Assembly (NCBI GenBank): GCA_019186985.1
Contig: JABARQ010000005.1
Location: 62,001 to 126,000 of the forward strand
Direction of reading: 5' to 3'
Length of the DNA stretch: 64,000 nt
From: Prosthecobacter sp.
GTDB taxonomy: Bacteria > Verrucomicrobiota > Verrucomicrobiia > Verrucomicrobiales > Verrucomicrobiaceae
Part shown: positions 4,770 to 59,272 of the stretch, piece by piece
How the letters are laid out: each line of letters starts with the position of its first letter
Numbering within the stretch: the stretch's first letter is position 1
Translations under genes and position numbers: made by a program
Notes under the pieces: model-generated
Database searches by the model: none
Seen by the model: the letters and a program-made list of their open reading frames with translations, nothing else
Told to the model about the DNA's origin: nothing

Positions 4770-4838
4770 TCGGAGCAGGGCACGCAGGTTGGCGACCCCT
4801 GGGGCAAAAGCCTGTTTCGCAAGAGGCGAAGCGGCTGA

Positions 4839-7800
4839 TCAGGGGGCTTGAACGATGATGGTGATGTTGTTGGAGAGCACGCCGCCGGGTGTGATCGGGT
4901 TGATCACCTGGACCTTGTAGACATAGGTGCCTGGAACATCCCCGACGTCGGTTGTCAGCGTGCTGGAGGTCTCCGTCTTGATTTCGACGTTGTCGCGCCT
5001 GAGAATGTAGGTCTTTGTGCCTCCGCCGTCCGAGTCAACATCGAAGGTGAGGGTGGTGTTGGGGGCGACGGTGGTGACAGCGGGTGACTGCAGTGTCAGC
5101 GTGGCGGTTGTCACTGGCTCGATCACCAGCAGCTGGACCGGGTTGCTGTCCATGCCTTCAGGGTCAAGGTCGCTGCTCACATGGCAGACGTAGATGCCTG
5201 AATCACCGGCGGCGACGTTGTTGAGCGTGAGGAACTGGGAGTCGCCTCCGGGGACGGCCTGTCCACCTTTTTTCCAGGTGTAGGTCCGGACGCCTCCGCC
5301 CTGGGCATCAACGCCAAAGGTGACGGTTGCGGTTCCAACGGCGACGTACTCGTCGAGGGGTTCTCGTGAGGCCACCACGTTGTAGATGAGGTCGCGGATT
5401 TCGAGGATCAGATCATTGCTGGAGACAGGGTTTCCGTTGGCTTCGTTCTTGACCTCACAGCGATAGGTTCCGGCGTCGGAGTAGTTCAGGCTGGCGATGT
5501 AGTAGGTGCTTGAGGTGGCTCCCGTGATCAGGTCGGTCCCCTTGTACCACTGATATTCCTTGGTGCCCGTGCCATTGGCGGCTGCCTCGAAGGTGACGCT
5601 TGTCTCGGGCCGGAGGGCGGTGTTGGCGGGCGTGCGGGTGGCTGTGACGACCGTGACGGGTTCGATGACGTTCAGGTTGTCGGGTTCGCTTGCGACAGAG
5701 GTGCCTTCGGCGTTCTTGGCGTTGCGTGCCGTGACCTTGTAGGCCCCTGAGCTGGCGGTCTGTGCCACGAAGGTGTAGGTTTTGCCGGTGGCGCCTTCAA
5801 TGGGGTTGGTTCCGAAGTACCACTGGTAGAAGATCTCTTCGGAGCCTGTCGCTGCGGCGGTGTAGGTAACGGCCGTTCCGGCGGCAACACTTGCGTCGGC
5901 AGGGCTGCGGGTGATGGTCACCGAGGTGACGGGGGTCTTCAGGCTCAGCGTGGCGGTGTTGCTTGCTGTCTGGAGCACGCCGGAACTGGCGACGCAGACA
6001 TAGGAGCCGACATGGGCCGCGCCGACGCCCACGATCGTGTAGGTCTGGCCGGTGGCGGCCGTGATCGGCTCGCCATTGCGAAACCACTGATAAACAATGC
6101 CTGGGAGGCCGGTGGCGGCAGCGGTAAAGCTGACGGTGACGCTTTGACTGAGGGTGGATTCATCCACGATCTGGGAGGCCGGCTGCGTGGTGAAGGTGAT
6201 GGTGGGCGCCTTGAGGGAAACCCTGCCTGAAAGGATGGCGGATTTCGAGAGAGAAGGAGTGGTTCCTGGCAGCAGGAAAAAGCCGGCGCCTGAAGGAGGG
6301 CGGTAGGGGCTGCCGTACTCAGGGTCGGAAACGCTGTCGTTGATGCAGAGGCCTTCGAAGCCCACCTTGCGGGAGTCGGAAAGCTTGAAGCTTCCCCGGA
6401 ACAGGCCGGTGGACGGAGTGACGCTGAAGCTGACATCGGCGGGGTTGGCATCGGTGATGCTGCCCACATGGGAGGAGGTGATTCGGAAGGTCGGGATGTC
6501 GGGATTTGGGGCGGCGGAAGCAAGGCCTCCTTCGCTGAAACCGAGAATGGCATTGCCTGCGACATTGGGCAGGCCCATGACAACCCGGTTGGTGCCCGGG
6601 GGAACATACAAGGCGCCGGTGGCACTCAGGGTTGTGGCGCTGAAGCCGGGCTGGTAGGTGCGTTCCGAAGCCGGCTGGAGGGCCTTGATCCAACGAGCCT
6701 GGCCTACGACCCGGTTGAAGGACTGGCCGGTCAGGTTTTGCCGGCTGGTGCTGTTCAGAACCAGCTTCAAGGATGGCATCAAGGACGCCGTGTCCTTGTT
6801 CAGGCGCAGGAAGAAGTCGGTCTGAATCTCCAGTCGCGTGGTGGTCTGGGCTTCGTTTTCGGCAGCCAGGGTCTGGCTGGCGAAGGAACTGGAGGTGAGG
6901 GTGGTGCCATCGGCAAGCTTGCCTGCCAGCGAGGTGGTTCCCGAGCCATTCAGGGTGAGGCTGGCATAGCCGGCGCCCTGCGGGGTGTCCTGCTGCCCCA
7001 CGCGTGAGGTCTCCGGCTCAAGGGCGATGTTGAAGATCTCCGTTCTGCTGCTCAGCGGGCGGCGGGTGCGGTCCCAGATCAGGCGGTGACCGCTGAAGGT
7101 GGCTGTGGTGGAGCTGTCATAGATGCTGCCGCTGAAGCTGTTGGTGCCTTCGATGATCTGGACGATGAGGTTGAGGGTGGCCTGTCCCTTGCGGGGCAGC
7201 TGCACAAGCCCGGCGTAGGCGATGTAGGAGTTGCCGCTGGAATCCGTGACGGTGTCATAAATCACCAGGGTGCCCTTGAGGTTGTAGGAGTCTTTGCCCA
7301 TCTGAAGGCTGCCGCTGAACGAGCCGTTGTCAGTCACGGTGACCTGGATGCGTCCGCCCTTGTTGTCATTCAGGGCGGTGGAAGGAGACACGTTGGCGGC
7401 GAAGGTGCCGCAGAGGCCTGCCCCCAGCGGGTAGATGCGCAGAACTCCCGTGACCGGGTCGCTGGCGCCCGCCTTGTTGGCCGCCGTGGCGCGAATGTTA
7501 AAGCTGCCCGCCTTGGTCGGTCGGCCATAGATGAGGCCGCTGGTCTTGTCATAGGTCAGGCCCGGTGGCAGGCCGGTGATCGTGTAGCTGCTGGCGTTGT
7601 TGTTGGCGGTGCGGTCATAGGGGAGATAATATTGGTAGCCGTTGCCGACAATCCCGTCGCGCAATGCATAAGCTCCGGTCAGGGGGTTGAGGATGGGCTT
7701 GTTGGAAAGGGCCAGCTGAACTTCGCCTGACATGTGGGTCCCAAGTCCTTCGGGGGCCTCGATCTCGCAGGTGTAAACGCCGACATCCAGGGTTGGATCG

Positions 7801-10800
7801 GCGGATTCAATGGTCAGCACGGCGTCCTGGGTGCCGCTGAACCGGGCGGTGCCCGCATTGATCTTGTTTCCGTCCTTGTACCATTGATACAGAAGATCGG
7901 GGCCGGCGGCAGGAGCGTTGATGCGCACCAGGGTGCCGGGTTTTTCGACCTGCAGCTGGTTGAATTTCTGGATGACGACCACGGTGGCCTGAGTACTTGT
8001 GGCCGTGCCGGCGGAGTTGCGTGCAAAAGCCTGGTAAATGCCCGCATCCGCCAGGGTCGCCGAACTGATGAGCAGGGTCCTGCCCGTCTGGTTTTTGACG
8101 GTGGAGATGCCGCGTTTCCAGGTGAAGGACGGACTTGGGGATCCGGCATCAAGGTCGGTTTCCAGCTTCAGTTCAGACCCGGCTTCAACCAGCTTGTGGG
8201 GCAGAGGATCACCGATGACCGGAGGCTTGACGACATCCAGCCTGACACGGCTGCTGAGAACGGCCTCGGCGTCGTTGGAGACGATGACGTCATACAGGCC
8301 CTCCTCGGCGACCTGGACGGAGGGGATGGTGTAGGTGGCGGAGCCTGCTCCTGTCTGGCCGGGGATTTCCTCGCCATCCTTGCGCCAGCGGTAGACCAGG
8401 CTGGTGCCTGCGGCCTTGACGGTATAGACGACCTTGGTGCCTGCCTTGGCCACCACGGGAACGGGCTGCTTGGTGATGACGGGGCGCTTGTAGCCCGGCT
8501 GCACGTTGATGCTGAAGTTCATGGTCGCCGTGTTGCCATCGATGTCCTTGGCGGTGAGGATGACGGGGCGGGTGCCCGCTTTCAGGCCGGTGACACGGAG
8601 CTGGCTGCCGTTCTCGACGATCACCGTGGCGATGTCCGTCGCCTGGCTGTCGACCGTGTAGGTGACCGGGTTGATGAAGCTGATGCTGTTGACCCTGACG
8701 GTCTTGGTGATGTCCATGTCCGGAGGCACCGTGGAGGCGTCGATGGGAATGCCGGAGAAGGGGGTCAGGCTGCCGTCGATGATGATCCGCTTGTCGAGGT
8801 CAGGATTGTAGGTGCTGCCGGAGTTGTTGTCGATGTAGGAGCCTCTTGGCAGCGCGGCAATGGCGTCCATGACGGACAGGCCCGGGGTTGCGACCCTGGC
8901 GAAGGCGGTGAAGCCGCCGTTCTGGTTGTCCAGGTTGGTGCTGTTGTTGGCCAGGTTGAAAAAGAAGTCGATGCTAGCGCTGTCAGGGTTGCCCACATAG
9001 CCGTAGGTGTCGTCCCTCGGGTTGGTGGAGGAGGTCGCGGCCCGGTAGGCGGTGGAATCCCGGGCTCCCAGCTTGGCGGCCGCCACAGTGCCGCGAAGGT
9101 TGCTGATGCCGGGTTCGTTGGGTGGGGAGGGGCGTGCCGTGACACGGGTGAAGCTGCGTGGTGCCGCAACCGCCTTGAGGAAGCCGCCCTGAAGAACAAA
9201 GCCGGGCACCAGCCTGTGGAAGACCATGTTGGTGTAGTCGCCGTTCAGGACGTAGTTGGCGAAGTTGGTGACGGTTTCGGGTGCCAGGCTGTAGTAGAGG
9301 CCAAGGTCCATGGCCCCCTTGGTCGTGTCGATCTTGACGGCAAATTCGGTGTCGGCGTCCGTGAACCGGCCGTTGAGAGGAATGAGCATGGGGTCATTGA
9401 GGCCGACGGTGCGGTCTCCGATCCCGGCGTCCTCAGCCATGACGGGACTTCCGGGGGCAGGCAGGACACGCAGCATCAGGGTCACCTCCGCCGTGTGGCC
9501 GGCGCTGTAGGTGGCTCTCAGCGTGACCGGAAAATAACCTGATTCGGAGGGGGTGCCGGTGATCTCACCGTTGCTGGCATTGAACAACAGGCCGGGTGGG
9601 AGCCCAGTCGCTGTGAACGGGCTGACGGCGGCCTGGTTGGACAAGGTGACAGTGTGGGTGAATGCCTGGCCCTGCGTGATGGGCTGATAAAGCCGGCTGG
9701 TGAAACCATCCCGCGCCGTTGCAACAGCCGTGTTGCTGTCGAGGGAAAAGACGGAGGACTCGTTCGTTCCGACAGCCCTGACGACAAACTCGTAGGCGTT
9801 CCCGGCCGTGAACGACGTGAAGGTGAGAGTGCCTCCAGGATCCTGCGTCGTCGGCGGGTTGGCCGTCAGGGGATTGCCGGTGGTGTAGGAATCCACGCTG
9901 ACCTTGGTGACATTGGGCTGCAGTGCCCGGCAGAAGTTGAAGGTGCCGGTGGTTCCCGCCGGACGGCAGTAGATGTTGAAACCCTGTTCGGTGGAGGATT
10001 TGTCGGTCCAGGTGAGGTCAATGGTGTGGGCCACCCCGGAAGGCGCGGCGGTCAGGTTGCTCGGTGGCAGGAAATCTGCGGCACCGGAGGTGACAATGGG
10101 GGAGAACCCCGAATAAAGGGTCGTGTCGGAGGTGGCCCCGGTTGGACGATATTTGTAGACGGCACGCACCTGGAACTCGGCCGTGGCTTTCTGTGGCACG
10201 GGGACGTTCACGCTGGACACGTTTTCGCCCAGGGTGCCCAGGGTTTCCCAGGGGGGGGCGGTGTCGCCGAGAGTGCGATACTGGACTTCGTAGCCGGTTT
10301 CATTGCTGGAGTTGTCCTTCCAGGAGAGCGTGATCATGGATTCGCCGTTGGCGGCTGCGGAGAGGTCACTGGGAGCGCGCAGGGCGGGGACGGTGAAGTG
10401 GGGGGACGTGGTCTGGGCTGGGTTGCTGGTGTTGGCGCCTTCGCTGAAGTTCGGCACGCCAGCGACATATCCTCGTCCTGTCCTGACCTTGAACTCATAG
10501 GTCTTGCCGGGAACAAGCTGCAGCCTGTTGACCTGGGTGGAGGTGGAGCTTGGCAGGACGGTGCGGTTGGAAAGGGTGGTGGTCGTGGTGTTGAAGGGAA
10601 CCACGCCGATGAAGGTCCATGCACCGTCGGTGCCGGTGAATTCGCGCATCTCGAGGGCGTAGTGAAGCTCCTGGGAGGAATTGTCGTTCCAGGTGAGGAC
10701 CACCTGGCCGTCGTCGGCCACAACATTGGTTGGGGAGGGATCGAGATCCAGGCTGGTGGCGGTCAGGCCGTCAGGCGGCGCCAGGGCCGACTTGCCGTCG

Positions 10801-11240
10801 GCAGGGGGGATGGATGTGGCGATGGTGTAGGCGTTTGCCTCCGTCGTGGAGCCATTGAACTTCCAGGGGACAACCTGGAAGTGAACCGGAGTGCCCGCGC
10901 CCGAGCTGGGAATGCCTGTGGACACCCTGATCGAGGTGGAGTTGGGCGCCAGCTGGCTGACCGGATAAAAAGGACCGCTTGAACCAAAGCGGACGAAGAC
11001 CTGGTAGCCGTCTTCATCAATGGCGTTGTCCTTCCAGGTCACATACCAGGAATACCAGGCACCGCTGGGAGTGTTTTCCGTGTTGTTGTACGGGAAGCCG
11101 TAACGGGTGAACTCCACATGTCCCTCGGACGGTGCCGCAGGAGGAACGGCTGCGGCATCCCCTGTCATCAAATGGATCAGGCCGGTCAGGAGGAGCAGCA
11201 GGCAGGGGATGGGGCGGACCGCCGGAGGTGGGGTGTTCAT
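4839..11240 (-). CDS. Giant secreted Fn3/cyclophilin/Ig protein (paralogue 1)
   Basis: This 2133-residue protein starts with a signal peptide (to about residue 31). Order of parts, by approximate residue: four fibronectin III-like domains (36-510) with repeated KDNSS/GYEV motifs; an Ig-like putative domain with the LPPGL...GTP pattern (512-600); a cyclophilin domain (632-830) with FHRLVPGFVLQGG; a cadherin-like second half (830-915); three Ig domains (915-1180); another LPPGL domain (1182-1270); an unrecognised module (1273-1673); five Ig domains (1674-2133). No C-terminal anchor, autotransporter barrel or sorting signal is visible. It is probably an extracellular adhesin or scaffold, which is inference. 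Its neighbour upstream is a full-length paralogue 99 bp away. Confidence 0.85.
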   Translation of the reverse strand: MNTPPPAVRPIPCLLLLLTGLIHLMTGDAAAVPPAAPSEGHVEFTRYGFPYNNTENTPSGAWYSWYVTWKDNAIDEDGYQVFVRFGSSGPFYPVSQLAPNSTSIRVSTGIPSSGAGTPVHFQVVPWKFNGSTTEANAYTIATSIPPADGKSALAPPDGLTATSLDLDPSPTNVVADDGQVVLTWNDNSSQELHYALEMREFTGTDGAWTFIGVVPFNTTTTTLSNRTVLPSSTSTQVNRLQLVPGKTYEFKVRTGRGYVAGVPNFSEGANTSNPAQTTSPHFTVPALRAPSDLSAAANGESMITLSWKDNSSNETGYEVQYRTLGDTAPPWETLGTLGENVSSVNVPVPQKATAEFQVRAVYKYRPTGATSDTTLYSGFSPIVTSGAADFLPPSNLTAAPSGVAHTIDLTWTDKSSTEQGFNIYCRPAGTTGTFNFCRALQPNVTKVSVDSYTTGNPLTANPPTTQDPGGTLTFTSFTAGNAYEFVVRAVGTNESSVFSLDSNTAVATARDGFTSRLYQPITQGQAFTHTVTLSNQAAVSPFTATGLPPGLLFNASNGEITGTPSESGYFPVTLRATYSAGHTAEVTLMLRVLPAPGSPVMAEDAGIGDRTVGLNDPMLIPLNGRFTDADTEFAVKIDTTKGAMDLGLYYSLAPETVTNFANYVLNGDYTNMVFHRLVPGFVLQGGFLKAVAAPRSFTRVTARPSPPNEPGISNLRGTVAAAKLGARDSTAYRAATSSTNPRDDTYGYVGNPDSASIDFFFNLANNSTNLDNQNGGFTAFARVATPGLSVMDAIAALPRGSYIDNNSGSTYNPDLDKRIIIDGSLTPFSGIPIDASTVPPDMDITKTVRVNSISFINPVTYTVDSQATDIATVIVENGSQLRVTGLKAGTRPVILTAKDIDGNTATMNFSINVQPGYKRPVITKQPVPVVAKAGTKVVYTVKAAGTSLVYRWRKDGEEIPGQTGAGSATYTIPSVQVAEEGLYDVIVSNDAEAVLSSRVRLDVVKPPVIGDPLPHKLVEAGSELKLETDLDAGSPSPSFTWKRGISTVKNQTGRTLLISSATLADAGIYQAFARNSAGTATSTQATVVVIQKFNQLQVEKPGTLVRINAPAAGPDLLYQWYKDGNKINAGTARFSGTQDAVLTIESADPTLDVGVYTCEIEAPEGLGTHMSGEVQLALSNKPILNPLTGAYALRDGIVGNGYQYYLPYDRTANNNASSYTITGLPPGLTYDKTSGLIYGRPTKAGSFNIRATAANKAGASDPVTGVLRIYPLGAGLCGTFAANVSPSTALNDNKGGRIQVTVTDNGSFSGSLQMGKDSYNLKGTLVIYDTVTDSSGNSYIAYAGLVQLPRKGQATLNLIVQIIEGTNSFSGSIYDSSTTATFSGHRLIWDRTRRPLSSRTEIFNIALEPETSRVGQQDTPQGAGYASLTLNGSGTTSLAGKLADGTTLTSSSFASQTLAAENEAQTTTRLEIQTDFFLRLNKDTASLMPSLKLVLNSTSRQNLTGQSFNRVVGQARWIKALQPASERTYQPGFSATTLSATGALYVPPGTNRVVMGLPNVAGNAILGFSEGGLASAAPNPDIPTFRITSSHVGSITDANPADVSFSVTPSTGLFRGSFKLSDSRKVGFEGLCINDSVSDPEYGSPYRPPSGAGFFLLPGTTPSLSKSAILSGRVSLKAPTITFTTQPASQIVDESTLSQSVTVSFTAAATGLPGIVYQWFRNGEPITAATGQTYTIVGVGAAHVGSYVCVASSGVLQTASNTATLSLKTPVTSVTITRSPADASVAAGTAVTYTAAATGSEEIFYQWYFGTNPIEGATGKTYTFVAQTASSGAYKVTARNAKNAEGTSVASEPDNLNVIEPVTVVTATRTPANTALRPETSVTFEAAANGTGTKEYQWYKGTDLITGATSSTYYIASLNYSDAGTYRCEVKNEANGNPVSSNDLILEIRDLIYNVVASREPLDEYVAVGTATVTFGVDAQGGGVRTYTWKKGGQAVPGGDSQFLTLNNVAAGDSGIYVCHVSSDLDPEGMDSNPVQLLVIEPVTTATLTLQSPAVTTVAPNTTLTFDVDSDGGGTKTYILRRDNVEIKTETSSTLTTDVGDVPGTYVYKVQVINPITPGGVLSNNITIIVQAP

Positions 11241-11339
11241 GTCAGGGGCGGATGGGGAAAAATGAGAGAGGACATGCCTGGATCAGGCATGCTGGGGTCA
11301 CGGGATCGAGTTTAGGAAAAAGAGGTTGGGAGAGCTTTG

Positions 11340-14300
11340 TCAATCAATCACCAGCGGCACTGCGGAACTGGTGACACCGCTGGTGGAGACAATGTTTTTG
11401 ACCACGACGTCATAGCTTCCCTCATCCTCCTCGGATGCCGAGGAGATGACGAGGCTGGGGCCGGTGGCGTCGGGAACAGGGGAGCCGTCCTTGCGCCACT
11501 GATAGGTGAGGTTCTGCGTGGAGCCCGTGACAAAGACGGCGAAGGTGACCTCGCTTCCTGCGGGCAGGGAGGCATTCTCCGGGGTGCGGCCCACGCTGGT
11601 GATGTTCACCGGAGCGGCCACGACGAGAGGCACGCCGGAGGAGGTCACGCCGGCAGGGGTGAGGCTGTTGGTGACGGTGACGGTGTAGGTGCCGCTGTCT
11701 GCCTCCGCAGACGGGTTGATCACCAGGGTGCCGGAGCTTGCCCCGCTGATGATTTCCCCATCGCGCCTCCATTCATAGACCGGCGAGCTGCCGTCGGAAA
11801 CCGCCGTGAACGTGACCTGGGTTCCCGTGGCGACGGCGGAAGTGCCCGGTGATCGGCTCAGGGTCACGGTCGTCACCGGGGCAAGGACTCCGAGGAAGAC
11901 GGTGTTGCTCAGCACGCCTCCGGTGGTGACGATGTTTCTGACGACCACGTCATAGCCTCCGACATGGGAGGTGTCCGCCGAGTCAATCGTGTAAGTCGGC
12001 CCCGTGGCGCCAGGGATGGCGATGGTGCCCTTGCGCCATTGGTAGGTCAGGTCCTGTGTGGAGCCCGTGACCGTGACGGAGAAGGTGACGGGTGAACCCG
12101 GAGCCACATCGGCATCTGAAGGCGTTCGTCCCACCGAGGTGATGTTCACCGGCTGGGCAACGGCAAGAGGAACGGCGGTTGAGACGACCTCCGTGGAGGT
12201 CACGACATTGGTCACGGCGACGGTGTAGGAGCCGGCATGATCCAGGGTGAGCGAGTCGATGACATAGGTCGATGCATTGGCACCGGTGATGTTGCTGCCG
12301 TTGAGCCTCCATTGATATTGAGGCGAGGTGCCGTTCGCCGTGGCGGTGAAGGTGACCTTGGTGCCGGTGGCGAGCGTGGTTCCCGCGGGTGATCGGGAGG
12401 CTGAGACGGTGGTGACCGGCGTGTTGACGCTCAGGGTGGCCGCCGATGAGGTGACGACGCTGGAGCCGTTGGTGATGACGCATTCGTAGGTGCCTTCGTC
12501 ACTGGTCTTGGTGACGCTGCTCAGGTAGAGGGTGGCGGAGGTGGCGTCGACGATGGAGGTTCCATTCTTGCGCCACTGATAAGTGACGACACCCTGGCTG
12601 GAGACAGCGACGGCAACCGTGAACGAGACCGGGGTTCCAGGGTTGACTGTCTTGGAAACCGGCTGGGTTGTGATGGTGAGCGGAATGCCGCGGAGGAGGG
12701 CGACGCCTGAATGAATCCTCTGCGGTGTCAGGCTTGTCTTAAGTTCGGGAAGCAGGAAGTAACCCGCTCCGCGTCCGGCCGAACCAGGGATTTCACTGGC
12801 GAGCACCGTGCCGCTGCCATTTTTGATTTCAGGCGTGGTGGGAATGGTGGGAATGATGATGCCCTGATAGGCAACGTTCCGGATCTCATTGTTGATGCCG
12901 TCCTTGAGCTCAAACCTGCCGCTGTAGGTTCCTGTGGCGGCATTGATGGCCAGGGTGGTCTTGGCGGTAGATGACGTCGGGTAGCTGACGCCCTGGAGCG
13001 TGCTGATGCTCAGGGTGCGGTCAGGAACTCGTGAAACGGAGCCGATGCCTCCCTGGGCAAACTTGACCTCGGCATTGGAGGATGTGTTGGGGAGGCTCAT
13101 GACAATCTTGCCGGTCGGCGGGCGTACATAAATGGTTCCGAGGATGTTGAGGAAGACCTCCGGGAAGCCTGCCTGGTAGTTTCGCTCGGAGCCTGGCTGG
13201 ACGGATTTGTTCCAGCGCGCCTGACCGCTCACCCTCAGCTTGGCGCCTTCGCTGCTGGTCAGGAGGCTGTCGCCGATGTCAAGCCGGGCCATGATGGAGC
13301 CCGTGTTCTTGTAAAGCATCGCAAACAGCAGGGTCTCGCCTCCGGGTCCCAGCAGGGAGCTGGAGGTGATGCTGGTTCCATCCGCCAGCCTGCCGGAGAT
13401 GGTGCCAAGCCCTTTGCCGTTGACCTTCATGGACAGATAGCCGCTGCCCTGGGGGATGCTGGCGTCGCCGATGTCATCCTCGGAGGAAAGGTCGAGGGCC
13501 ATGTTGTAAATGATCTGGGTCGGGGTTGATCCATAGGGGCAGGGGTTCCAGGTTTCATGCCAGGGCAGGCGGAAGCCGCTGATGCCGACCGAGTGGGTGC
13601 CGTCGCTCAGGAGGCCGGTGATGTATCCATAGGCCGAGTCTGCTTCGAAGCTGAGCGTGAGCACGGTCTTGTTCTTGCGGGTGAACTTGACCAGGCTTTG
13701 ATAACTCAAGTTGGACGGGTTTGACAGGCCGAGCCCGATTCCCAGTGAACCTGCCGCATTGAGCACCTCGGTTCCAAGCGTGATCTTGGCCGTGTAGGCG
13801 CCGGTTTCGGTGACGGTGAGATCAATCCGGCCGCCCCTGCCGCCATTCAAGGCATCGGAGGCGCCGACGGTGCCGGCAAAGATTCCAGTGTTTGCGGGCG
13901 GCAGCGCGGTGACCACCAGGTCTCCCTGTGCCGCAGGTGCGCTTGTGCCGGCCAGGTTGGAAGCGGTGGCTGAGAGCTTGTAGGTTCCGGCCTTCGTGGG
14001 GCGTCCGCTGATGACACCGGTTCGGGTGTCGAACTTCATGCCAGGAGGAAGGCCGGTCAGGGTGAAGCGAGAGGGGGTGTGGATGTCGAACTTGGAATAA
14101 GGCAGCATCCAGCGGTATTCGATGCCGATGTAGGCGGGGGGCGGCGCATTGAGGCCTGTCAGTGCCGGAAGCACGGGATCGGTGACGCAGAGCAGCCGGG
14201 TGACACCGGTGGTCATGGTGCCCAGCCCGTCGGGCAGGGTGATGACACAGTCGTACTGGTCAATGTCCTCGGCCGTGCAGGCGCTGATGCTCATGGACGG

Positions 14301-17300
14301 CGTCTGTACTCCTGAAAACCTCTCCCTGTTGGTGAGGATGTCGACCCCTGCCTTCCGCCACTGATACTGGATGTCAGGGCCTGCGGCCTCCGCCTTCAGC
14401 ACCGCCACGGCGCCCTGCTTCTGGACCACGGTCCTGGCGGACTTGTCCACGACAAACACCCTGGATTCATTGCTGGGAGAGGACTTGCCGACGCTGTTGG
14501 AGGCCGTGGCCGTGTAAACGCCTGCATCCGCAAGCTTGGCGGACTTGATGTTCAAGGTGGAGCTGGTTTGTCCCGCGACTGCCGCCGCGCCTTTTTTCCA
14601 CAGGATCGAAGGCGCTGGCGCCCCGGTGACGTCAGAGACTTGAAGGGTGAGCGGGCTGCCGGCCTCAACCACCTTGAACACCTCCAGAGCGCCGACGGCG
14701 GGGAGGGTTCGGATGTCGAGCCTGGCCGGGGCGCTGATTCTCGTGGCGCTGCCGTTGCTGACCACGACGTCGTAGCTTCCGGCATCAGCCGGCTGGACGT
14801 TTTCGATCACGAGGGTCTTGCTGTTTGTGCCGACGTTCAGCCCGTTCCTGCGCCACTGATACTGAAGCTCGGCCCCGGTTGCGGTGACGGTGAAAGTGGC
14901 CTTGGCTCCCTGGAGCACGGCTGTTGAAACGGGATGCCTGGTGATGGCGGCCGGTGCATAACCGGTGCGCGTCTCCACGGTGAAGCTCTGGCTGGAGGAT
15001 CGGTTGTCGAGGTCGACGGCGCTGACGGTCACCGATGTCAGGCCGCGGATCAGTCCGGTGAGGAGGAGGTCATTGCCATCGATTTCAGCGCGGACGATGC
15101 CGGTCGGATTGGAGTTCACGATATAACGGATGGAAGGCACAAGGTAAGCCTTCCTGATCTGGATGGTCTTGTTGATGTCCATGTCGGCGGGGGCTGTGGC
15201 CGCGTTCATGGGGATGCCGGAAAGCGGCGTCAGGGATCCGTCGACCACGACCCGCTTGTCGAGGCTGGGTGAATAGGACGTGTCGCTGTTGGTGTCTTGA
15301 TAGGTGCCCGCAGGCAGCGCGGCGATGGAGTCCACCACGCTCATGGCGGCGTTGCTCAGGCGGCCGAAGGCGGTGAAACCGCCGTTTTGGTTGTCCAGGT
15401 TTTCCGCGTTGTTGCCAAGGTTGAAGAAAAAATCCGTGGTCGCGCTGTCGGGGTTGCCGACATAGCCGAACTGCTCATCCCTGGCGACCGTGCCGGAGGA
15501 AAGGGCGGCATAGGAGGTCCGTGCGCCAAGCTTGGCGGCGGCCACGGTGCCTCGCACGTTGCTGATGCCAGGTTCATTGACGGGGGATGGGCGCTGGGCA
15601 ACGCCTGCAAAGGAGCGCGGGATTGCGGCCGCCCTCATGCTGCCTCCCTGGAGGACGAAGCCGCTGGCAAGGCGGTGGAAGACCACATTGTCGTAATCGC
15701 CTGACTCGACATAGGACAGGAAGTTGGCCACGGCATCGGGGGCGAGGCTGGGAAAGAGCTGGATGTCGATGTTGCCCTTGGTGGTTTCCAGGCGGACACC
15801 GGACTCGGCATCGGCGTCCACGAACTTGTCAGAAAGGGGGATGCGAAGCTTGGCGCCGATGCCCAGGAGAAGGTTGGGAAGCTTTCCGGGCACCACGGCC
15901 GGGGAAGTCGCGGTTTTCAGGATTCTCAGGGTCAGGGGGGCGGAGGCGGTCGGGGCGTCGACGAAGCTGGCGGTCATCGTGCAGTGGAAGACGCCAGGGC
16001 TGGTCGGAGTACCGCTGAGGATGCCCGTGCCCTGATCGAAGGCCAGGCCGGCGGGCATGCCGCTGATGTTCCAGCTGGTGCGGTTGACGGCATTGGAGGT
16101 GGCCGCCTGATAGGAGAAGGACACCCCCACCTGGCCGGGGTGGTGGTTGCGGCTGGTGAATCCATCAATCACCGTGGCTGCGGCGGTGTTGCTGTCGGCG
16201 GAAAACGTCGTTTCATTGCTGCCCACGGCCCTGACCACGAATTCATGGAGGGTGCCGGCTTCGAGGGAGACAAACACGGGTTTTCCATCGGCATCCTGGC
16301 CGTCCTGGCGTGAATTGACGCTCACCCTGGTGACGTTCTCCCTGACCGCCCTGGCGAAGAACCAGTCCTGGGTCCCCTGCGGGCGTGTGTAGACATTGAA
16401 GCCGACTTCGGTGGTGGAATTGTCCTTCCAGGCCAGGTTGGCCGCGCGGGCCATGCCTGAGGTGCTGGCGGTCAGCTCCGTGGGTGCGGCAAACGAGCCG
16501 TTGCTGGAGACGATGTTTGAAGGGGCGCTGCGGAGGGTGGTCGCCGTGCTGCTGCCGGAGGGCGTGTAGGTGTAGACAGCGACGACGCGCCAGTCATAAG
16601 AAGCTCCCTGCGGCAGGAAAAACTGCGCACTGGTGGCATCCTCCGAAGCAGTCGAAAAAACGGTGAAGGCGTCCTCTGCTGACGAAGCTGCATCCCGGTA
16701 CTGGATTTCATAACCGGTCTCATTGGCCGAGTTGTCGAGCCAGTTCAGACGCAGGGCGTTTTCCCGCAGGCTGGTGGCGCTCAGCTGGGTGGGGGCGGCG
16801 AGTTCGGGAACCTGGAGAGGGACGATGTTGGACCAGCCTGAGGCATTCGAAGTGCCGGCGCTTGCCTGTCGCGTGGCTCGAACTCGGAATTCATAGCTGG
16901 CTCCTGGCATGAGCCTGGCCCTGAACTGATGGCTGACCGAGTTGCTGGTTGACTGGCCGGTGAAGTTTTTCCCGGAGAGGTTCGTGAAGCCCAGCGTTTG
17001 GAACTCCACAGCCGGGTTTTTGACTTCGCGAAAGTCAACCTGATGATACAGCTCCGAGTTGCTGCGGTCCACCCAGCTCAGCCTGAGGGTGCCGTCATTG
17101 ATGTTGCTCACGGCAGGGGAGCCCGGAGAGGTGAGGTCCGAGGCCGTTCCTTCAGGAATGGTGAAACTGAAGGCCGGCGAGGTGCTGGTTTCAATCCTTG
17201 TTCCGTTGTACTTCCAGGCAACGACCTGGAATTGAACGGCTTTTCCGGCCTCCAGTGCGCTGACAGGCGTGATCAGGGCCTGGGTGCTGCTGGCAGCCGC

Positions 17301-17582
17301 GCGCGCAGCCGTGAAGGCCGCCCCCTCGGGCCCCTTCATCTTGATCTCAAACCCCTCCTCGTCGACCGAGTTGTCCTGCCACTGCACGACATAGGACTGC
17401 CTGCTGCCGACATAAATCTGCCCCGCTGAGTCGATGCCCGCCTTTGAAAAATCCACCAGGGTGACAGTGGGGGCCGCCGGAGGAGCGGCGATAGCAGCAA
17501 GTGAGAGGGCGGTTAAAAAAATCACGCATGCCCTGCTCAGGTTTTTTGAACGTGATTGGTTAGGTGGGGGGAGGAGGGGCAT
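11340..17582 (-). CDS. Giant secreted Fn3/cyclophilin/Ig protein (paralogue 2)
   Basis: This 2080-residue protein has the same domain order as the gene downstream, so the two look like a tandem duplication. After a signal peptide (to about 33) come four Fn3-like domains (37-490), an LPPGL-type Ig domain (490-570), a cyclophilin domain (593-787, FHRLASGFVLQGG), a cadherin-like half (787-880), three Ig domains and another LPPGL domain (880-1228), the unrecognised module (1230-1632), and Ig domains to the end. The last 360 residues are two copies of an A-B Ig pair. The final residue follows directly on an Ig strand, with no anchor. Function is unknown; surface or secreted location is inferred from the signal peptide and domains. 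Confidence 0.85.
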   Translation of the reverse strand: MPLLPPPNQSRSKNLSRACVIFLTALSLAAIAAPPAAPTVTLVDFSKAGIDSAGQIYVGSRQSYVVQWQDNSVDEEGFEIKMKGPEGAAFTAARAAASSTQALITPVSALEAGKAVQFQVVAWKYNGTRIETSTSPAFSFTIPEGTASDLTSPGSPAVSNINDGTLRLSWVDRSNSELYHQVDFREVKNPAVEFQTLGFTNLSGKNFTGQSTSNSVSHQFRARLMPGASYEFRVRATRQASAGTSNASGWSNIVPLQVPELAAPTQLSATSLRENALRLNWLDNSANETGYEIQYRDAASSAEDAFTVFSTASEDATSAQFFLPQGASYDWRVVAVYTYTPSGSSTATTLRSAPSNIVSSNGSFAAPTELTASTSGMARAANLAWKDNSTTEVGFNVYTRPQGTQDWFFARAVRENVTRVSVNSRQDGQDADGKPVFVSLEAGTLHEFVVRAVGSNETTFSADSNTAAATVIDGFTSRNHHPGQVGVSFSYQAATSNAVNRTSWNISGMPAGLAFDQGTGILSGTPTSPGVFHCTMTASFVDAPTASAPLTLRILKTATSPAVVPGKLPNLLLGIGAKLRIPLSDKFVDADAESGVRLETTKGNIDIQLFPSLAPDAVANFLSYVESGDYDNVVFHRLASGFVLQGGSMRAAAIPRSFAGVAQRPSPVNEPGISNVRGTVAAAKLGARTSYAALSSGTVARDEQFGYVGNPDSATTDFFFNLGNNAENLDNQNGGFTAFGRLSNAAMSVVDSIAALPAGTYQDTNSDTSYSPSLDKRVVVDGSLTPLSGIPMNAATAPADMDINKTIQIRKAYLVPSIRYIVNSNPTGIVRAEIDGNDLLLTGLIRGLTSVTVSAVDLDNRSSSQSFTVETRTGYAPAAITRHPVSTAVLQGAKATFTVTATGAELQYQWRRNGLNVGTNSKTLVIENVQPADAGSYDVVVSNGSATRISAPARLDIRTLPAVGALEVFKVVEAGSPLTLQVSDVTGAPAPSILWKKGAAAVAGQTSSTLNIKSAKLADAGVYTATASNSVGKSSPSNESRVFVVDKSARTVVQKQGAVAVLKAEAAGPDIQYQWRKAGVDILTNRERFSGVQTPSMSISACTAEDIDQYDCVITLPDGLGTMTTGVTRLLCVTDPVLPALTGLNAPPPAYIGIEYRWMLPYSKFDIHTPSRFTLTGLPPGMKFDTRTGVISGRPTKAGTYKLSATASNLAGTSAPAAQGDLVVTALPPANTGIFAGTVGASDALNGGRGGRIDLTVTETGAYTAKITLGTEVLNAAGSLGIGLGLSNPSNLSYQSLVKFTRKNKTVLTLSFEADSAYGYITGLLSDGTHSVGISGFRLPWHETWNPCPYGSTPTQIIYNMALDLSSEDDIGDASIPQGSGYLSMKVNGKGLGTISGRLADGTSITSSSLLGPGGETLLFAMLYKNTGSIMARLDIGDSLLTSSEGAKLRVSGQARWNKSVQPGSERNYQAGFPEVFLNILGTIYVRPPTGKIVMSLPNTSSNAEVKFAQGGIGSVSRVPDRTLSISTLQGVSYPTSSTAKTTLAINAATGTYSGRFELKDGINNEIRNVAYQGIIIPTIPTTPEIKNGSGTVLASEIPGSAGRGAGYFLLPELKTSLTPQRIHSGVALLRGIPLTITTQPVSKTVNPGTPVSFTVAVAVSSQGVVTYQWRKNGTSIVDATSATLYLSSVTKTSDEGTYECVITNGSSVVTSSAATLSVNTPVTTVSASRSPAGTTLATGTKVTFTATANGTSPQYQWRLNGSNITGANASTYVIDSLTLDHAGSYTVAVTNVVTSTEVVSTAVPLAVAQPVNITSVGRTPSDADVAPGSPVTFSVTVTGSTQDLTYQWRKGTIAIPGATGPTYTIDSADTSHVGGYDVVVRNIVTTGGVLSNTVFLGVLAPVTTVTLSRSPGTSAVATGTQVTFTAVSDGSSPVYEWRRDGEIISGASSGTLVINPSAEADSGTYTVTVTNSLTPAGVTSSGVPLVVAAPVNITSVGRTPENASLPAGSEVTFAVFVTGSTQNLTYQWRKDGSPVPDATGPSLVISSASEEDEGSYDVVVKNIVSTSGVTSSAVPLVID
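11343..12420 (-). repeat. Two-unit higher-order repeat of Ig domain pairs, about 540 nt each
   Basis: Within the 3' end of the second giant gene, an A-type Ig domain (starts PVTTV, then SRSP) alternates with a B-type domain (starts PVNITSVGRTP). The order is A-B-A-B, with unit starts near 12420, 12153, 11880 and 11612. A domains resemble each other more than they resemble B domains, and likewise for B. The unit that was duplicated was therefore the pair, about 180 residues. Confidence 0.75.
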
Positions 17583-17734
17583 GGAATGGGAGTGAGGTCT
17601 GCCTGATGAGACAAACCTGCACCTGTTGTTTGCTCGAAAAGAATACCCGTCTTGTGATTACAAAGTCAATCCTTAAGCTGGCCGGAAAACTTTTCTCGCC
17701 TTCGCTGGCAATTCCGGCAGGATTTTTGTCCGCC

Positions 17735-53683: not shown

Positions 53684-56600
53684 ATGAAACTCCCGCTTAT
53701 CAGCAGGCTGTCCACGTGCTTTCGTGGTGTTAAAAACAGGGTGCTTTGGATTGCCGTCCTCGGGCTTGTCCTATCCTGGTCGGCTCTGCGTGAAATGCAG
53801 GCCGACAGGGATGCCGGACGGGCTGCGGACCTGACGAAGGCGTCTGCTGGTTCCGCCGTTCTGGCACCTCGAAACGCCGTGGCGGAGCAGCAGGTGGTGT
53901 CAGGACAGGTTCGAAAGGAGGAGGCTGTTGCAGCAACGCGAAATGCTGGTGAAAAGGAATCGCTGATGGAGGCCTTCGCCCGGGCGCTCCTGCAAATCCA
54001 GAGGCCTGATGAGGGAGAGGCGGCGCTGCCTGGCAACGCCGGGGTGCGCTACTTCATCTCCAACCCGCGTCAGGAGCTTTCGGCACGGTTTACCGACCAG
54101 GGGGCCGTGCTTGGATCCGAACGTGCGGGAGCCTGGAAGGCGAAGGTCAGCGTGAGTGCCGTTGGCACGGAGAAGGCTGTCTCTGCTGTTCCTGCCCAGG
54201 TGGAGCCCGGGGTCGATGGCGGCAGGGTCAGCTATGAGCGCGGCTCGCTGGTGGAGTGGTATGAGAACAAGCCGGCGGGCATTGAGCATGGCGTGACGGT
54301 GCGCAGCCGTCCGGATCCCCGGGCGGATTCAGGCAGGCTGCGTGTGGACATGCGGATGAGCGGCCTTTCCTCAAGCCGGGACGGCGATGCCGTTGTTCTG
54401 TCGGATGCCCAGAACCAGCGTGTCATGCGTTATGACGGCCTGAAGGTCTGGGATGCCACGGGCAGGCGGCTTGCTGCCGAGATGTCACCGATCCAGGATG
54501 GCATCAGCATCCTTGTGGCTGATGCGGGGGCGGCCTACCCGGTCGTGATCGACCCGCTTTTCACATCCCTGGAGACGAAGCTTTCCAGGGCCGAGCTTGA
54601 GTGTGGCAAGCCCGGCGATTATTACGGGCATGCTGTGGACATCGTCGGCGACCTGGCGCTGGTCGGCAGTCCTGGAGATGACAACCTGCGTGGCACGGAT
54701 GCCGGAGGCGCCTACCTCTTTCAGCGTTCAGGAACCACCTGGTCGCTGGTGACCAAGCTGAAGGCTGCTGATGGCAGGCCGGGTGATCGTTTGGGCGGCT
54801 CTGCGGCAATTGGCGGTGGTTTTGTGCTTGTGGGCTGCCGCATGGCCGACCTCCCCGGCAAGGCTGACGCCGGCGCCGTCTACATGTTTGCGCGCAAGTC
54901 CGGCTTCTGGACGCAGACCTCGAAGCTGACGGCCAGGGATGCGTCCGCCGGCGCCTGGTTCGGGGAGAGCGTGGCGATTGACGGCCGAAACGTCATCATT
55001 GGTTCGCCGACCGCCTCCGACGGACGCGGGGCTGCGTACCACTTCACGCAAAGCGGCACCACCTGCACGCAGAAGGCGGTCTTGAAGGCGAGTGATGCGC
55101 AGCCTGGCGACGGGTTTGGGGGTGCGGTGGCGGTCAGCGGGGGCAGGGCCTTCATCGGCGCGCCCCTGAGAAGCTCCGCCCGCGGTGCGGTGTATTCCTT
55201 TGAACTGGCGGGCTCCACCTGGCTCCAGGTTCAGACGCTGACGCACAGCGCAGGCTCAGCCGGTGACCTTTTTGGAGATTCGATGGTGCTGGACTTCCCC
55301 AGGGCCGTCGTTGGCGCTCCGGGCCGTGATTCCGCCGCAGGTGCGGCTTATGTTTTTGGACGCTCAGGAAACACCTGGGTTCAGACGCAGGAGTTGAAGG
55401 CGTCTGACGCCGCCGCGGGGGATGCCTTCGGCATGTCCATGAGCCTGCACCGCACCACGATCCTGATCGGCGCCCCCGGGGACGATCTGACGAATCAGGA
55501 CCAGGGCAGCGCCTACCTGTTCAGTTCCGAGGGCGCCAGCACCTGGAGCCAGCAGGCGAAGCTGAAGGACGATGCCGGGGTGCAGGGAGACTGGTTCGGG
55601 GGCGCGGTCGCCTTTGACCAGACCACTGCTGTGATCGGAGCCTTCCAGGCGGATGCCCCCGGCTGGAACAATGTGACAGTCGAAGACCTCGGCGTGGTGT
55701 ACGTCTTCCGCGTGTTTGCCTCCAGCGGTCCAAGGGTTGCCGTGCGTCTGGTGGATCCGTCGACAAAGCTTCCTCCGTTGAACGAGCTTGTGGATGGGGA
55801 CGGCATTTACTTTGGCGAGGTCCTTGTCGGACGCTCAAGCAGCAACAGCTTCCTGCTTGAAAACCTGGGCGCATCCCCCTTGAGCAACCTCAAGGGGCTG
55901 GTTTCCGGGACTCATGCAGCCATGTTCTCCCTGTCGTCGCCGCTGCCGGCGAGCCTGCCGCCTGGCGGTTCCGTGCTGGTGACCGTGGTCTTCAAGCCGA
56001 AGAGCGAGGGCGGCAAGGTGGCGAGCCTGAAAATCACCAGCAATGATCCGGCTCGTCCCTCGATGAGCCTCCTGCTGAGCGGAGTCGGCGTGGTGCCGGT
56101 TCCCGGGGCCGAGGCGCCGCAGTTTGTCATTGTTCCGGAATCCCAGATGGTGCCCCTCGGTCAGAACGTCCGCCTGAACTCACGTGCCACCGGCGTTCCC
56201 ACTCCAACCTACCAGTGGAAGAAGGGAACCGGGGTGCTGGCCGGCAAGAAGTCGGGCACCCTGAGCTTCAAGGCGCAGCTTTCCAGCGCCGGCACCTACA
56301 GCGTGCGTGCCGTCAACGTGCATGGTCATGATGATGCCCCTCCGGCGTCCCTGTACGTGGTCGACACCCAGGAGAAGCGCCTGGATGTCGCCGAGGGGCT
56401 GACTGCGACCATGAAGGTCGAGGCTGCGGGTGCGGGCCTGACCTATTCCTGGTTCTTTGTCAGGTACAATGAGCCGGTCGTGGGAAATGGAACACCGGTC
56501 ACGGCGGGCGGGCGTTATGCAATCTCCGCTGATGGAAAGACGCTGACGGTGAGCAACCTGAACTCCCTGGACAGCGGCACCTATTCCTGCCTTGTCTCCG

Positions 56601-59272
56601 GAGGCGGCTTCAGCATGTTCGGAGGGATTCACCACCTGTCCGTGATCACCGGCGCTCCGCAGTTTTCAGACTTCAGCCTGCCTTCCGGCCGAATCACCAA
56701 CCCCTACAGCTTCCAGGTTCCGGTGAATTCGTCGCCCTCTCTGCGTCCGGCGACCTTTGCCGCCACAGGCCTGCCTCCCGGCCTGACCATCAACGCAACC
56801 ACCGGAGTCATTTCGGGAACGCCCACCGGAGCCGGCAATGCCAGCTACATGGTGACCATCACCGCCACGAACGCCAAGGGCTCGACTCCCGTGACCAAGC
56901 AGCTCTACATTGAAGGGCTGAACTGCAGTTATGTGGGACGGTTCATCGGCCTGATTGAACGGGATGGTGCGATCAACGGAGGCTTCGGCGGCTATGTGGA
57001 GGTGAACATCCTGCCGACCGCCACCTATTCGGGCTTCCTGAGCATCGCGGGTGTGAAGCTGCCGTTTGCGGGCAGCTTTGTCTATGAAGGCTACACGGCG
57101 GGGATCGCCGTCACCTGCACGGTGGCGAGGGACAAGCCCTACAAGAACCTCAGGTTCAGCTTTGAAATCAATCCGTCCTCGGACGGGCTGGTCGGCACGC
57201 TTCTTGAAGCCTCTCCCAGCACCCCATGGGACTTTGGCAGCTTCGCCGGCAGTCCCACCTTCTCCGGCAGCCTGGATGGCTTTGGCAACCTGGCGCGATT
57301 CAGCGGGCCCAGGGGTCTGGCCAAGGACCGGCTGGGATTCATCTATGTCGCCGACACCCTGAACCATGTGATCCGCCGGATTTCCCCCGGAGGAGAGGTG
57401 ATCACCTTCGCGGGAGTTGCCGGACAGGCGGGCCTGGTGAACGGCTGTGGAAGCGAGGTGCGCCTCAACCTGCCACGCGGACTGGTGGTGGATCTGAACG
57501 GTGTCATTTATGTGGCCGATACAGGAAACCGGGTGATCCGGGCCATCAGCAGCGAAGGCAAGGTCACCACCCTGGCGGGCTCCGGCTCCTCCGGCACTGC
57601 CGACGGCACGGGCGTCTCGGCCAGCTTTATGTCCCCCTCCGGCATCACGCTTGCCAGCGACGGCAGCCTCTATGTCACCGACAGCGGAGCCCACAACATC
57701 CGCAAGGTCACGCTTGCCGGCGTGGTCACCACCCTGGCGGGCAAGGCTGGCGTTGCCGGGGCGGTCAATGGTTCGGGAACCAGCGCCCAGTTCAACTCAC
57801 CTTCAGGCATCACCGCCTACAACGACAAGAAGCTGGGCGAATACCTGGTCGTGGCGGACTCCTCCAACCACTGCCTCCGCAAGGTGGTCATCAAGACCAG
57901 GGCCGTCACGGTTTTTGCCGGCGCCCTCGGAGTTTCTGGCGATAGCGACGGCCTGCCGGTGAACTCCCGTTTCAACACGCCTCGGGGAGTGGCCGTGGAC
58001 GCGAAGGGGAACTTCTACATCACCGACAGCGGCAATGGGTCGGTCCGTCAGGTCAGCGCCCTTGGGATCGTGACCACGCTTAACCGCCAGTGTGACACCA
58101 GCACCGATCATCTGAGCTCCGATGTCAGGATTGGCGCGCGATCCAAGGGAAATGACTGCTGCGGCATTGAGGATCCGTCCTCGTTCATGGAACTGGATGG
58201 CATCGTCTGGCTCGGCGGCGCCCTCTATGTCTCCGACAGCCAGCTTCACAACATTTCCTTCGGACAGCCTGGCACCGCCTGCCAGATTGATGTACGCGCC
58301 CGTCGCAACCCCTGGGGCAATGACAGTTATCATCCGGTTTCGACCCGCAAGGCGACCCCTTATGAATGCTTCAATCCTCCCGCCAGCTACTATGCGGGCA
58401 CGTATAACTTTGCGACGAGCCCCTGCTATGAATTCACCGGCATGACCTCGCTGGTGCCGCAGGGCAGCGGCATTGGCACGCTCACGGTGAGGCTTGACGG
58501 CACGGTGACCTGGGCCATGACGCTGGCGGACGGCACCGCCGTCACCGGCAGCAGCATCCTCGGGGCGACCTACGACAACTACTATTACAACGAGATCCCC
58601 ATCTATTCCATGCTGTACACGAACACGGGTTCGACGCAGGGCTGGCTGACCGTGTCCACGGACTATTTCATGCAGCCCACAGGTGCGGCCGCAACACAGG
58701 CCCAGGTGCAGACCTCCCCCTACATGATGAACTACGTCGACGGCTGCCTTGGCTGGATGAAGGTCGCCCCGGCCTCGTCGTCCGTGCGCAATTATCGTTA
58801 TGGCATCAGGCGGCATGGTGTCTCCGTCCTGGGTGAAATGATTCCCTCGTCATCTCCCGGCAGCGGTCTGGTCAGCCAGTACTTCCCGGGTTCCTCATCC
58901 AATGCCCTGCTGGGGTTCGATGAAGGCGGGCTGAGCCCCTCGTTCAGCCAGCCCTTCACCTTGAACAGCGACTTCACGGTGGACATGCCCTCCAACAGCA
59001 GGTCCCTGACCTTCAAGTTTAACGCCGGCACCCTCAAGTTTGACGGCACCTTCAAGCTGAGTGATTCGAACCCGGTCAGCGGTGCCAGCCCGGCCACGGT
59101 CAACCGCAACGTCAGCTACAACGGCGTCTTCCTGAGGCGTACGGGCAGGGGGCACGGCTTCTTCCTCCTGGAACAGCTTCCGAGCGCCGGGCCGCCGACC
59201 ACCACGCCGACGACATCGCCCATCTTCTCCGGCAGGGTCATCCTGAACAGCGCCCAGTATAACCAGAATTGA
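53684..59272 (+). CDS. Giant secreted FG-GAP/Ig/NHL protein (paralogue 3)
   Basis: This 1862-residue protein has an N-terminal hydrophobic segment (residues 20-35). Parts in order: a beta-rich leader domain (100-290, ends YPVVIDP); about seven FG-GAP repeats with GAPGDD motifs (290-690); an ASH/choice-of-anchor-like domain (700-800); two Ig domains (805-985); an LPPGL-type domain (990-1075); the first part of the module seen in the other giants (1079-1189); six NHL blades with YVADTxNHVIR motifs (1190-1525); and the rest of the module (1530-1860). It lacks the cyclophilin and Fn3 parts. The C-terminus ends shortly after the SGRVIL strand. Function is unknown, probably extracellular. Confidence 0.83.
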   Translation: MKLPLISRLSTCFRGVKNRVLWIAVLGLVLSWSALREMQADRDAGRAADLTKASAGSAVLAPRNAVAEQQVVSGQVRKEEAVAATRNAGEKESLMEAFARALLQIQRPDEGEAALPGNAGVRYFISNPRQELSARFTDQGAVLGSERAGAWKAKVSVSAVGTEKAVSAVPAQVEPGVDGGRVSYERGSLVEWYENKPAGIEHGVTVRSRPDPRADSGRLRVDMRMSGLSSSRDGDAVVLSDAQNQRVMRYDGLKVWDATGRRLAAEMSPIQDGISILVADAGAAYPVVIDPLFTSLETKLSRAELECGKPGDYYGHAVDIVGDLALVGSPGDDNLRGTDAGGAYLFQRSGTTWSLVTKLKAADGRPGDRLGGSAAIGGGFVLVGCRMADLPGKADAGAVYMFARKSGFWTQTSKLTARDASAGAWFGESVAIDGRNVIIGSPTASDGRGAAYHFTQSGTTCTQKAVLKASDAQPGDGFGGAVAVSGGRAFIGAPLRSSARGAVYSFELAGSTWLQVQTLTHSAGSAGDLFGDSMVLDFPRAVVGAPGRDSAAGAAYVFGRSGNTWVQTQELKASDAAAGDAFGMSMSLHRTTILIGAPGDDLTNQDQGSAYLFSSEGASTWSQQAKLKDDAGVQGDWFGGAVAFDQTTAVIGAFQADAPGWNNVTVEDLGVVYVFRVFASSGPRVAVRLVDPSTKLPPLNELVDGDGIYFGEVLVGRSSSNSFLLENLGASPLSNLKGLVSGTHAAMFSLSSPLPASLPPGGSVLVTVVFKPKSEGGKVASLKITSNDPARPSMSLLLSGVGVVPVPGAEAPQFVIVPESQMVPLGQNVRLNSRATGVPTPTYQWKKGTGVLAGKKSGTLSFKAQLSSAGTYSVRAVNVHGHDDAPPASLYVVDTQEKRLDVAEGLTATMKVEAAGAGLTYSWFFVRYNEPVVGNGTPVTAGGRYAISADGKTLTVSNLNSLDSGTYSCLVSGGGFSMFGGIHHLSVITGAPQFSDFSLPSGRITNPYSFQVPVNSSPSLRPATFAATGLPPGLTINATTGVISGTPTGAGNASYMVTITATNAKGSTPVTKQLYIEGLNCSYVGRFIGLIERDGAINGGFGGYVEVNILPTATYSGFLSIAGVKLPFAGSFVYEGYTAGIAVTCTVARDKPYKNLRFSFEINPSSDGLVGTLLEASPSTPWDFGSFAGSPTFSGSLDGFGNLARFSGPRGLAKDRLGFIYVADTLNHVIRRISPGGEVITFAGVAGQAGLVNGCGSEVRLNLPRGLVVDLNGVIYVADTGNRVIRAISSEGKVTTLAGSGSSGTADGTGVSASFMSPSGITLASDGSLYVTDSGAHNIRKVTLAGVVTTLAGKAGVAGAVNGSGTSAQFNSPSGITAYNDKKLGEYLVVADSSNHCLRKVVIKTRAVTVFAGALGVSGDSDGLPVNSRFNTPRGVAVDAKGNFYITDSGNGSVRQVSALGIVTTLNRQCDTSTDHLSSDVRIGARSKGNDCCGIEDPSSFMELDGIVWLGGALYVSDSQLHNISFGQPGTACQIDVRARRNPWGNDSYHPVSTRKATPYECFNPPASYYAGTYNFATSPCYEFTGMTSLVPQGSGIGTLTVRLDGTVTWAMTLADGTAVTGSSILGATYDNYYYNEIPIYSMLYTNTGSTQGWLTVSTDYFMQPTGAAATQAQVQTSPYMMNYVDGCLGWMKVAPASSSVRNYRYGIRRHGVSVLGEMIPSSSPGSGLVSQYFPGSSSNALLGFDEGGLSPSFSQPFTLNSDFTVDMPSNSRSLTFKFNAGTLKFDGTFKLSDSNPVSGASPATVNRNVSYNGVFLRRTGRGHGFFLLEQLPSAGPPTTTPTTSPIFSGRVILNSAQYNQN

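Follow-up and report, generated by a model that had tools for sequence, protein, structure and literature searches.

Insertions of one domain into another are much rarer than end-to-end fusions. A number of systems nevertheless provide points of comparison for the one described here. In oligopeptidase B, the propeller (residues 77–404) sits between two parts of the catalytic domain (PMC8533160), and the α I domain of integrins is presented as a monophyletic insertion at a fixed loop, tied to ligand binding (PMC10659397). The cargo of type 11 secretion (Slam) is described as having C-terminal eight-stranded barrels accompanied by variable N-terminal parts and embellished loops (PMC12282271). 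In this study, we have analysed a stretch of 64,000 nucleotides from Prosthecobacter sp. (contig JABARQ010000005.1, positions 62,001–126,000, forward strand; the window), in which the third of three giant genes (P0003, window positions 53684–59272, + strand) encodes, in a single uninterrupted open reading frame (ORF), a protein of 1862 residues that carries a whole NHL β-propeller nested inside a module of its C-terminal part. We propose that this propeller entered a small barrel, barrel A, at the turn linking its strands 7 and 8, probably in a single event, and that it is held out as a binding head, a reading that we consider likely. The identity of the guest, the breakpoint, its recurrence and the C-terminal position come from sequence, and the strand order and the barrels from predicted models; the closure of the barrel across the guest, the orientation, the single origin, the secretion and the binding and surface roles are what we infer.

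The arrangement, with a propeller as the guest, is already known in kind, and the host module is an unnamed one. As in the prolyl oligopeptidase family, a whole β-propeller lies inside another domain, but the host here is a small barrel without an enzyme match, no hydrolase-fold family being found among the Pfam and NCBIfam matches of giant 3 when an α/β hydrolase host was considered. As in the integrin α I domain, one domain is inserted in another at a fixed loop, but the roles are reversed, since there the propeller is the host and a vWA domain the guest. The guest has the fold and the repeat of the NHL propellers SOQ1, NHLRC2, TRIM71 and Pizza6, and the likeness is drawn on these two features; the propeller of giant 3 is nested in a barrel. 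A propeller nested in this module was not described in the literature searched, which comprised titles and abstract openings, mostly outside the subscription journals.

The guest propeller and its breakpoint

The guest spans residues 1181–1533 (57224–58282, + strand), as delimited by Pfam NHL matches and fold comparison, and matches the Pfam family NHL (PF01436) with 85.4 bits (cut-off 20) in four stretches. The six NHL blades counted by the first-pass annotation of this DNA were recovered as five blades evident from the sequence plus a degenerate sixth, completed by an N-terminal strand. In the AlphaFold2 model, the ring is closed by strand 1182–1189 together with the last blade; the sixth blade is partly of low confidence, with residues 1472–1492 below 50 in the predicted local distance difference test (pLDDT). 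Aligned with VIA-align, the guest model matches the lumenal domain of SOQ1 (7djm; Z 42.9, 305 residues, 2.0 Å, model residues 117–460), NHLRC2 (6g7w; Z 42.2) and TRIM71 (7qrx; Z 37.1), propellers that we take to be six-bladed, as well as the designed six-bladed Pizza6 (Z ~33, model residues 108–456). These alignments cover whole NHL rings, at Z ~33 to 43 and over residues 108–460 of the predicted model, and the guest is confirmed as a complete six-bladed NHL propeller. It is also better conserved than its hosts, with a median identity of 45% over 91 pairs against 35% for barrel A and 37% for barrel B, the barrel that follows; its identity exceeds that of barrel A in 71 of the pairs and that of barrel B in 88, in a comparison that favours the guest, as the repeats hold conserved structural residues.

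The host can be read without interruption in the two other giants of the window, giants 1 and 2, which are adjacent paralogues (4839–17582, − strand). The intact module of giant 1 (6201–7445, − strand, 415 residues) is a natural version without guest, and that of giant 2 was located by sequence match and alignment at 12687–13922 (− strand). The part of giant 3 that follows the propeller (the second flank) matches giants 1 and 2 in BLASTP with E-values of ~1e-18 to 1e-21. The landmarks PQGSG (residue 1592), LADGT (1614), FDEGGL (1745) and FFLL (1826) had been placed correctly by the first-pass annotation, and so had the ORF. The part before the propeller (the first flank) gives weaker pairwise matches to giants 1 and 2 (60 residues, E 5e-6 to 9e-4). 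A profile of 18 uninterrupted first flanks, giant 3 not among them, matches it at 1.3e-12, and the same profile matches the other three inserted first flanks of the genome at 3e-20, 4e-20 and 3e-10. A further match of the giant 3 first flank, at 5e-27, was not used, because the profile behind it had been built with giant 3.

Strands 1–7 of barrel A occupy residues 1085–1175 of giant 3 (56936–57208, + strand), as assigned from the AlphaFold2 strands, the profile match and the model of the intact paralogue. Strand 8 is found after the guest, at residues 1535–1541 (58286–58306, + strand; an AlphaFold2 strand, model residues 462–468), and is followed by Trp 1544 of an R-x-x-W signature. In giant 1, the site homologous to that of the propeller is a strand 7–8 turn of four residues, DSST (7107–7118, − strand). 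The first part of the module had been thought to run to about residue 1189 and the host to resume at 1530; both parts exist, but their boundaries had to be moved, as host strand 7 ends at ~1175, the propeller ends at ~1533 and the host strand resumes at 1535. The placement of the insertion immediately ahead of a strand with a Trp, which runs unbroken in the paralogues, was borne out by an alignment of 46 rows (14 inserted and 32 uninterrupted), in which the guest columns (residues 1185–1530) hold no residue from any of the 32 uninterrupted rows. In both sets of rows the strand that runs up to R-x-x-W is aligned, preceded by the propeller in the inserted ones and by just a short turn in the uninterrupted ones, and R/K-x-x-W is present in 13 of the 14 rows with the insertion and in 22 of the 32 without it.

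A chain of predicted barrels as host

The natural, uninterrupted module of giant 1 served as the guest-free comparison for the structure of the host. AlphaFold2 predicted this module with a pLDDT of 93.0 and a predicted template modelling score (pTM) of 0.91 (104-row alignment), and residues 1074–1862 of giant 3 with a pLDDT of 88.8 and a pTM of 0.86 (the 46-row alignment). In giant 3, the predicted barrel A is made up of eight strand elements, of which seven precede the guest and the last follows it, with pLDDT values, taken in ten-residue blocks, of 76–96 over strands 1–7 and 94 at strand 8. Barrel B, placed by strand match to the paralogue model, lies at about residues 1565–1720 (58376–58843, + strand), and a C-terminal strand-rich stretch, defined by AlphaFold2 strands, at about residues 1741–1856 (58904–59251, + strand). 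In VIA-align, barrel A (giant 1 model 6–122) aligns to hemophilin HphA (8glo; Z 9.1, 100 residues, 3.5 Å) and to Cap15 (7n34; Z 8.8, 103 residues, 3.0 Å, target length 108), and barrel B (giant 1 model 129–279) to fHbp (5nqp; Z 9.1, 109 residues, 3.0 Å) and also to TbpB barrels; residues ~299–412 of the same model are strand-rich and hardly covered by fold comparison. The module is most likely to consist, as modelled, of an eight-stranded barrel A, a barrel B and a strand-rich stretch, rather than of one domain.

The first-pass annotation had seen one host domain split into halves by the propeller. The nested insertion stands, but its scope was probably misjudged: the structure prediction and fold comparison suggest separate barrels, with strand 8, after the guest, belonging to barrel A, so that only barrel A (~120 residues) would be interrupted, and all but one of the strands following the guest would belong to later domains. 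It is quite unlikely, in our opinion, that A and B are one large domain whose two halves come together around the propeller. Barrel A is never found without barrel B in the genome (32 of 32 places), the relative placement of A and B is confidently predicted in the intact model, as its pTM indicates, and the barrel matches are modest, all of which would fit a single domain; an obligate neighbour is, however, different from one domain, all strands of barrel A but one precede the guest, and model residues 6–122 and 129–279 each align alone to single barrels of unrelated proteins. A common repeat origin of the two barrels is not claimed, as A matches B only weakly by BLASTP and by profile (A against the last part of B, with a probability of 40%). 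A sequence search of the PDB, with a best E-value of 0.003 over a short stretch, was not used.

An eight-stranded up-and-down barrel has the start of its first strand and the finish of its last one at the same end, with turns 1–2, 3–4, 5–6 and 7–8 at the opposite end. In our proposal, a whole six-bladed NHL propeller would have entered the tight 7–8 turn of the first barrel, probably once. Because the first strand of the ring also closes it, the chain ends of the guest would lie side by side, allowing a tight turn to be replaced without opening the barrel. Barrel A would still close, because strand 8 with R-x-x-W comes after the guest, and this closure is suggested by strand order, sequence and model confidence. 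Since the 7–8 turn lies opposite the entry and exit of the chain in an even-stranded up-and-down barrel, the propeller would project from the far end of barrel A and be kept clear of the adjacent Ig and barrel domains. The most likely use of such a disposition would be the binding of a ligand by the exposed face of the propeller, and its display as a binding head, plausible from the topology, appears the most likely outcome.

Several observations weigh against this proposal. Barrel A of giant 1 has nine strand elements according to DSSP, the extra one (61–67) adjoining element 52–59, and this matters because the far-end argument requires an even number of strands. We infer, rather than see, that strand 8 pairs with strands 7 and 1 on the other side of the guest, and the 32 uninterrupted rows out of 46 in the alignment could bias AlphaFold2 toward a closed barrel. 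The barrel Z-scores of ~9 are barely above the 7–8 that are the typical best when a model has no clear match. The Foldseek search with the intact module is also weak, with one hit at E <0.001; the weak matches include DUF3598, streptavidin, FABPs and TbpB, folds which we take to be barrels, and as this list is too weak for absences to count as evidence, the barrel ranges were taken from VIA-align. Finally, one inserted relative, L012, has no R-x-x-W. This last point, and the fact that, between giant 3 and its nearest relative, L032, conservation is lowest in barrel A (39%, against 49% for barrel B and 57% for NHL), could also be explained if barrel A had become a relic that no longer folds after the insertion, with the guest as a neutral passenger. 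This is highly improbable in view of the retention of R/K-x-x-W in nearly all inserted rows, the model confidence along strands 1–7 and at strand 8, and the single open frame shared by A, guest and B in all 16 inserted modules of the survey described below.

Recurrence and origin of the insertion

The nested propeller of giant 3 is not an isolated case. The first-flank profile finds 32 places in the genome (5.9 Mb), and at each of them the second flank comes next on the same strand, with a gap within 136 nt at 28 places and of 1054–1180 nt at the other four. Second-flank matches amount to 46, including 14 without a detected first flank; in two of these (L023 and L025), a diverged first-flank-like stretch can be seen by eye. 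Module matches with identical coordinates and score are present on two contigs (C14:799–1599 and C50:799–1599), possibly a duplicated end in the assembly.

A wider survey of 243 sequences (the window and 242 loci) yielded 156 distinct second flanks, 141 of them with the first flank found. The module is contiguous in 125, with at most 44 residues between the flanks (unmatched profile ends allowed for), while in the remaining 16 the flanks are 332–383 residues apart, always with 4–6 NHL hits in between. Because giant 3 itself served as the query for part of the loci, 16 of 141 should not be read as a frequency, and the 4 of 32 in the genome is less biased. The 16 inserted modules have the same breakpoint (column 102–110 of the 117 in the barrel A profile), and a breakpoint shared by 16 proteins argues that the insertion is not due to chance. 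In a 17th case, L136, NHL precedes the second flank and the end of the contig cuts off the first. No guest of a kind other than NHL was found among the 141 modules, and, over the rows matched in one piece (118 uninterrupted first and 133 second flanks), no insertion of more than 25 residues, which leaves 23 of the 156 second flanks outside the count. Among these 23 there is one split match, with 215 residues over 111 profile positions, in the distant relative L176 (ORF 844–3462, − strand, residues 501–849). Its barrel B is matched in two pieces with a surplus of ~100 residues between them; barrel B, or the stretch after it, may carry another insert there, which also counts against our reading. 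No split first flank was found among the omitted modules.

The second flank is present in 32 of 67 genomes of Verrucomicrobiaceae (E 1e-10) and in 18 of the 288 genomes of a phylum sample (E 1e-6); the nearest relative identified by name lies on a contig of 'Verrucomicrobiaceae bacterium UBA2429' (L061). In other families of the phylum, contiguous modules are present at eight loci and no inserted one was seen, and the uninterrupted module is therefore probably the older state. One locus of the window's own genome (L011, contig C1:160500–180400) has two neighbouring giant genes (ORFs 3006–8249 and 8642–17716), both encoding nested NHL modules. Their propellers share 68% identity, and the pair is probably the product of a recent tandem duplication; the first of the two giants also has an array of ASH/Cep192-like domains.

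With regard to the origin of these nested modules, a single ancestral insertion followed by duplication is favoured. The guest tree was built on blades 2–5 with 41 rows, in place of an uninformative full-length tree in which just two free NHL rows remained; one of the 17 guests, L126, dropped out owing to short coverage. It puts the 16 inserted rows on one side of a branch, whose support of 74/77 is not significant. The host tree (52 rows, 15 inserted and 37 hand-picked uninterrupted) speaks against a single event in that it places the inserted rows in three groups, with three changes of the insertion label, and by BLAST the guests of L033 and L043 match free NHL arrays best, a free array ranking second for those of giant 3 and L032. 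Several independent NHL insertions at the same turn, that is, a promiscuous display loop, would account for the three groups and for the two guests closest to free arrays. We nonetheless regard this as unlikely, as a single host clade of inserted rows is not rejected (p-AU 0.26, or 0.435 without L043), the guest tree, which is in register, keeps the inserted rows together, and the guest is always NHL. The tolerant loop suggested by the first-pass annotation is supported for this turn and the NHL guest only, given the 141 modules without any other guest and a single event that is not rejected.

The barrel module and its carriers

Giant 3 begins with a hydrophobic segment at its N-terminal end, followed by FG-GAP_2 repeats, an ASH Ig-like domain (choice-of-anchor-D in NCBIfam), Ig domains, He_PIG and, as its C-terminal part, the module carrying the nested propeller. 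Giants 1 and 2 each have, among their fn3, He_PIG and Ig domains, a peptidyl-prolyl isomerase domain of the cyclophilin type (residues 635–800 and 596–760, respectively). The barrel parts of the three giants have no Pfam or NCBIfam match at E 1, and the module of giant 1 matches no Pfam family; when 104 uninterrupted modules were compared with Pfam (E 0.1), 11 families appeared in all, none of them matched by more than two members. Judged by sequence, the barrel module is unnamed and without a model in the curated libraries searched.

The position of the module was judged in 124 of the 156 cases, in which the profile end was matched and the reading frame closed. In 115, no more than 10 residues separate its end from the stop codon; the distance is 11–30 residues in one and longer in eight, giants 1 and 2 among the latter; all 13 inserted modules in this set end within 10 residues of the stop, and several distant relatives omitted from it have 48–315 residues after the match. 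The barrel module is mostly C-terminal, and this distribution suggests a cap or targeting module in Verrucomicrobiaceae. The inserted module would keep the role it has in its uninterrupted carriers, most likely capping of the C-terminus or placement at the surface.

In its predicted C-terminal barrels the module resembles the Slam cargo (TbpB, fHbp and HphA), with a modest fold similarity; the Z-score of 9.1 to HphA and fHbp is of a level common to unrelated barrels such as Cap15 and FABPs. Unlike in the Slam cargo, the TbpB and lipoprotein C barrel families are not among the 11 Pfam families mentioned above, and no PF04575 (SlipAM/DUF560) partner was found in this genome, whose assembly is 96% complete. 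The PF04575 search matched 24 of 288 phylum genomes, one of them strongly (3.8e-52), with the 14 control genomes silent, and a genome of the same genus (G018) gave a weak match (4.7e-5, 24.4 bits against a cut-off of 22). As for type IX secretion, SprA_N was not found in the genome, in a search whose controls were silent as well. None of the three giants matches PEP-CTERM. Two exosortase-family proteins are encoded in the genome (C11:107243–108019 and C16:91576–92361). The giants are probably secreted.

From these comparisons we tentatively put forward, as a possibility to which we give rather little weight, that the barrel chain is an undescribed, Slam-independent C-terminal targeting or capping module of Verrucomicrobiaceae giants, the far-end turn of barrel A being a display site that holds a second propeller. 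If this were true, proteins of the giant 3 type would combine an FG-GAP head at one end with an NHL head carried by the C-terminal barrel. The analysis brings to light a C-terminal barrel module that has no name and is abundant in this genome, as the number of second-flank matches indicates. The recurrence of the nesting, together with the 28 natural uninterrupted relatives that this genome holds beside 4 inserted modules, makes the cost and the use of nesting a propeller of ~350 residues in a tight turn testable, and the strand 7–8 turn, as a natural display scaffold, could be tried with other guests.

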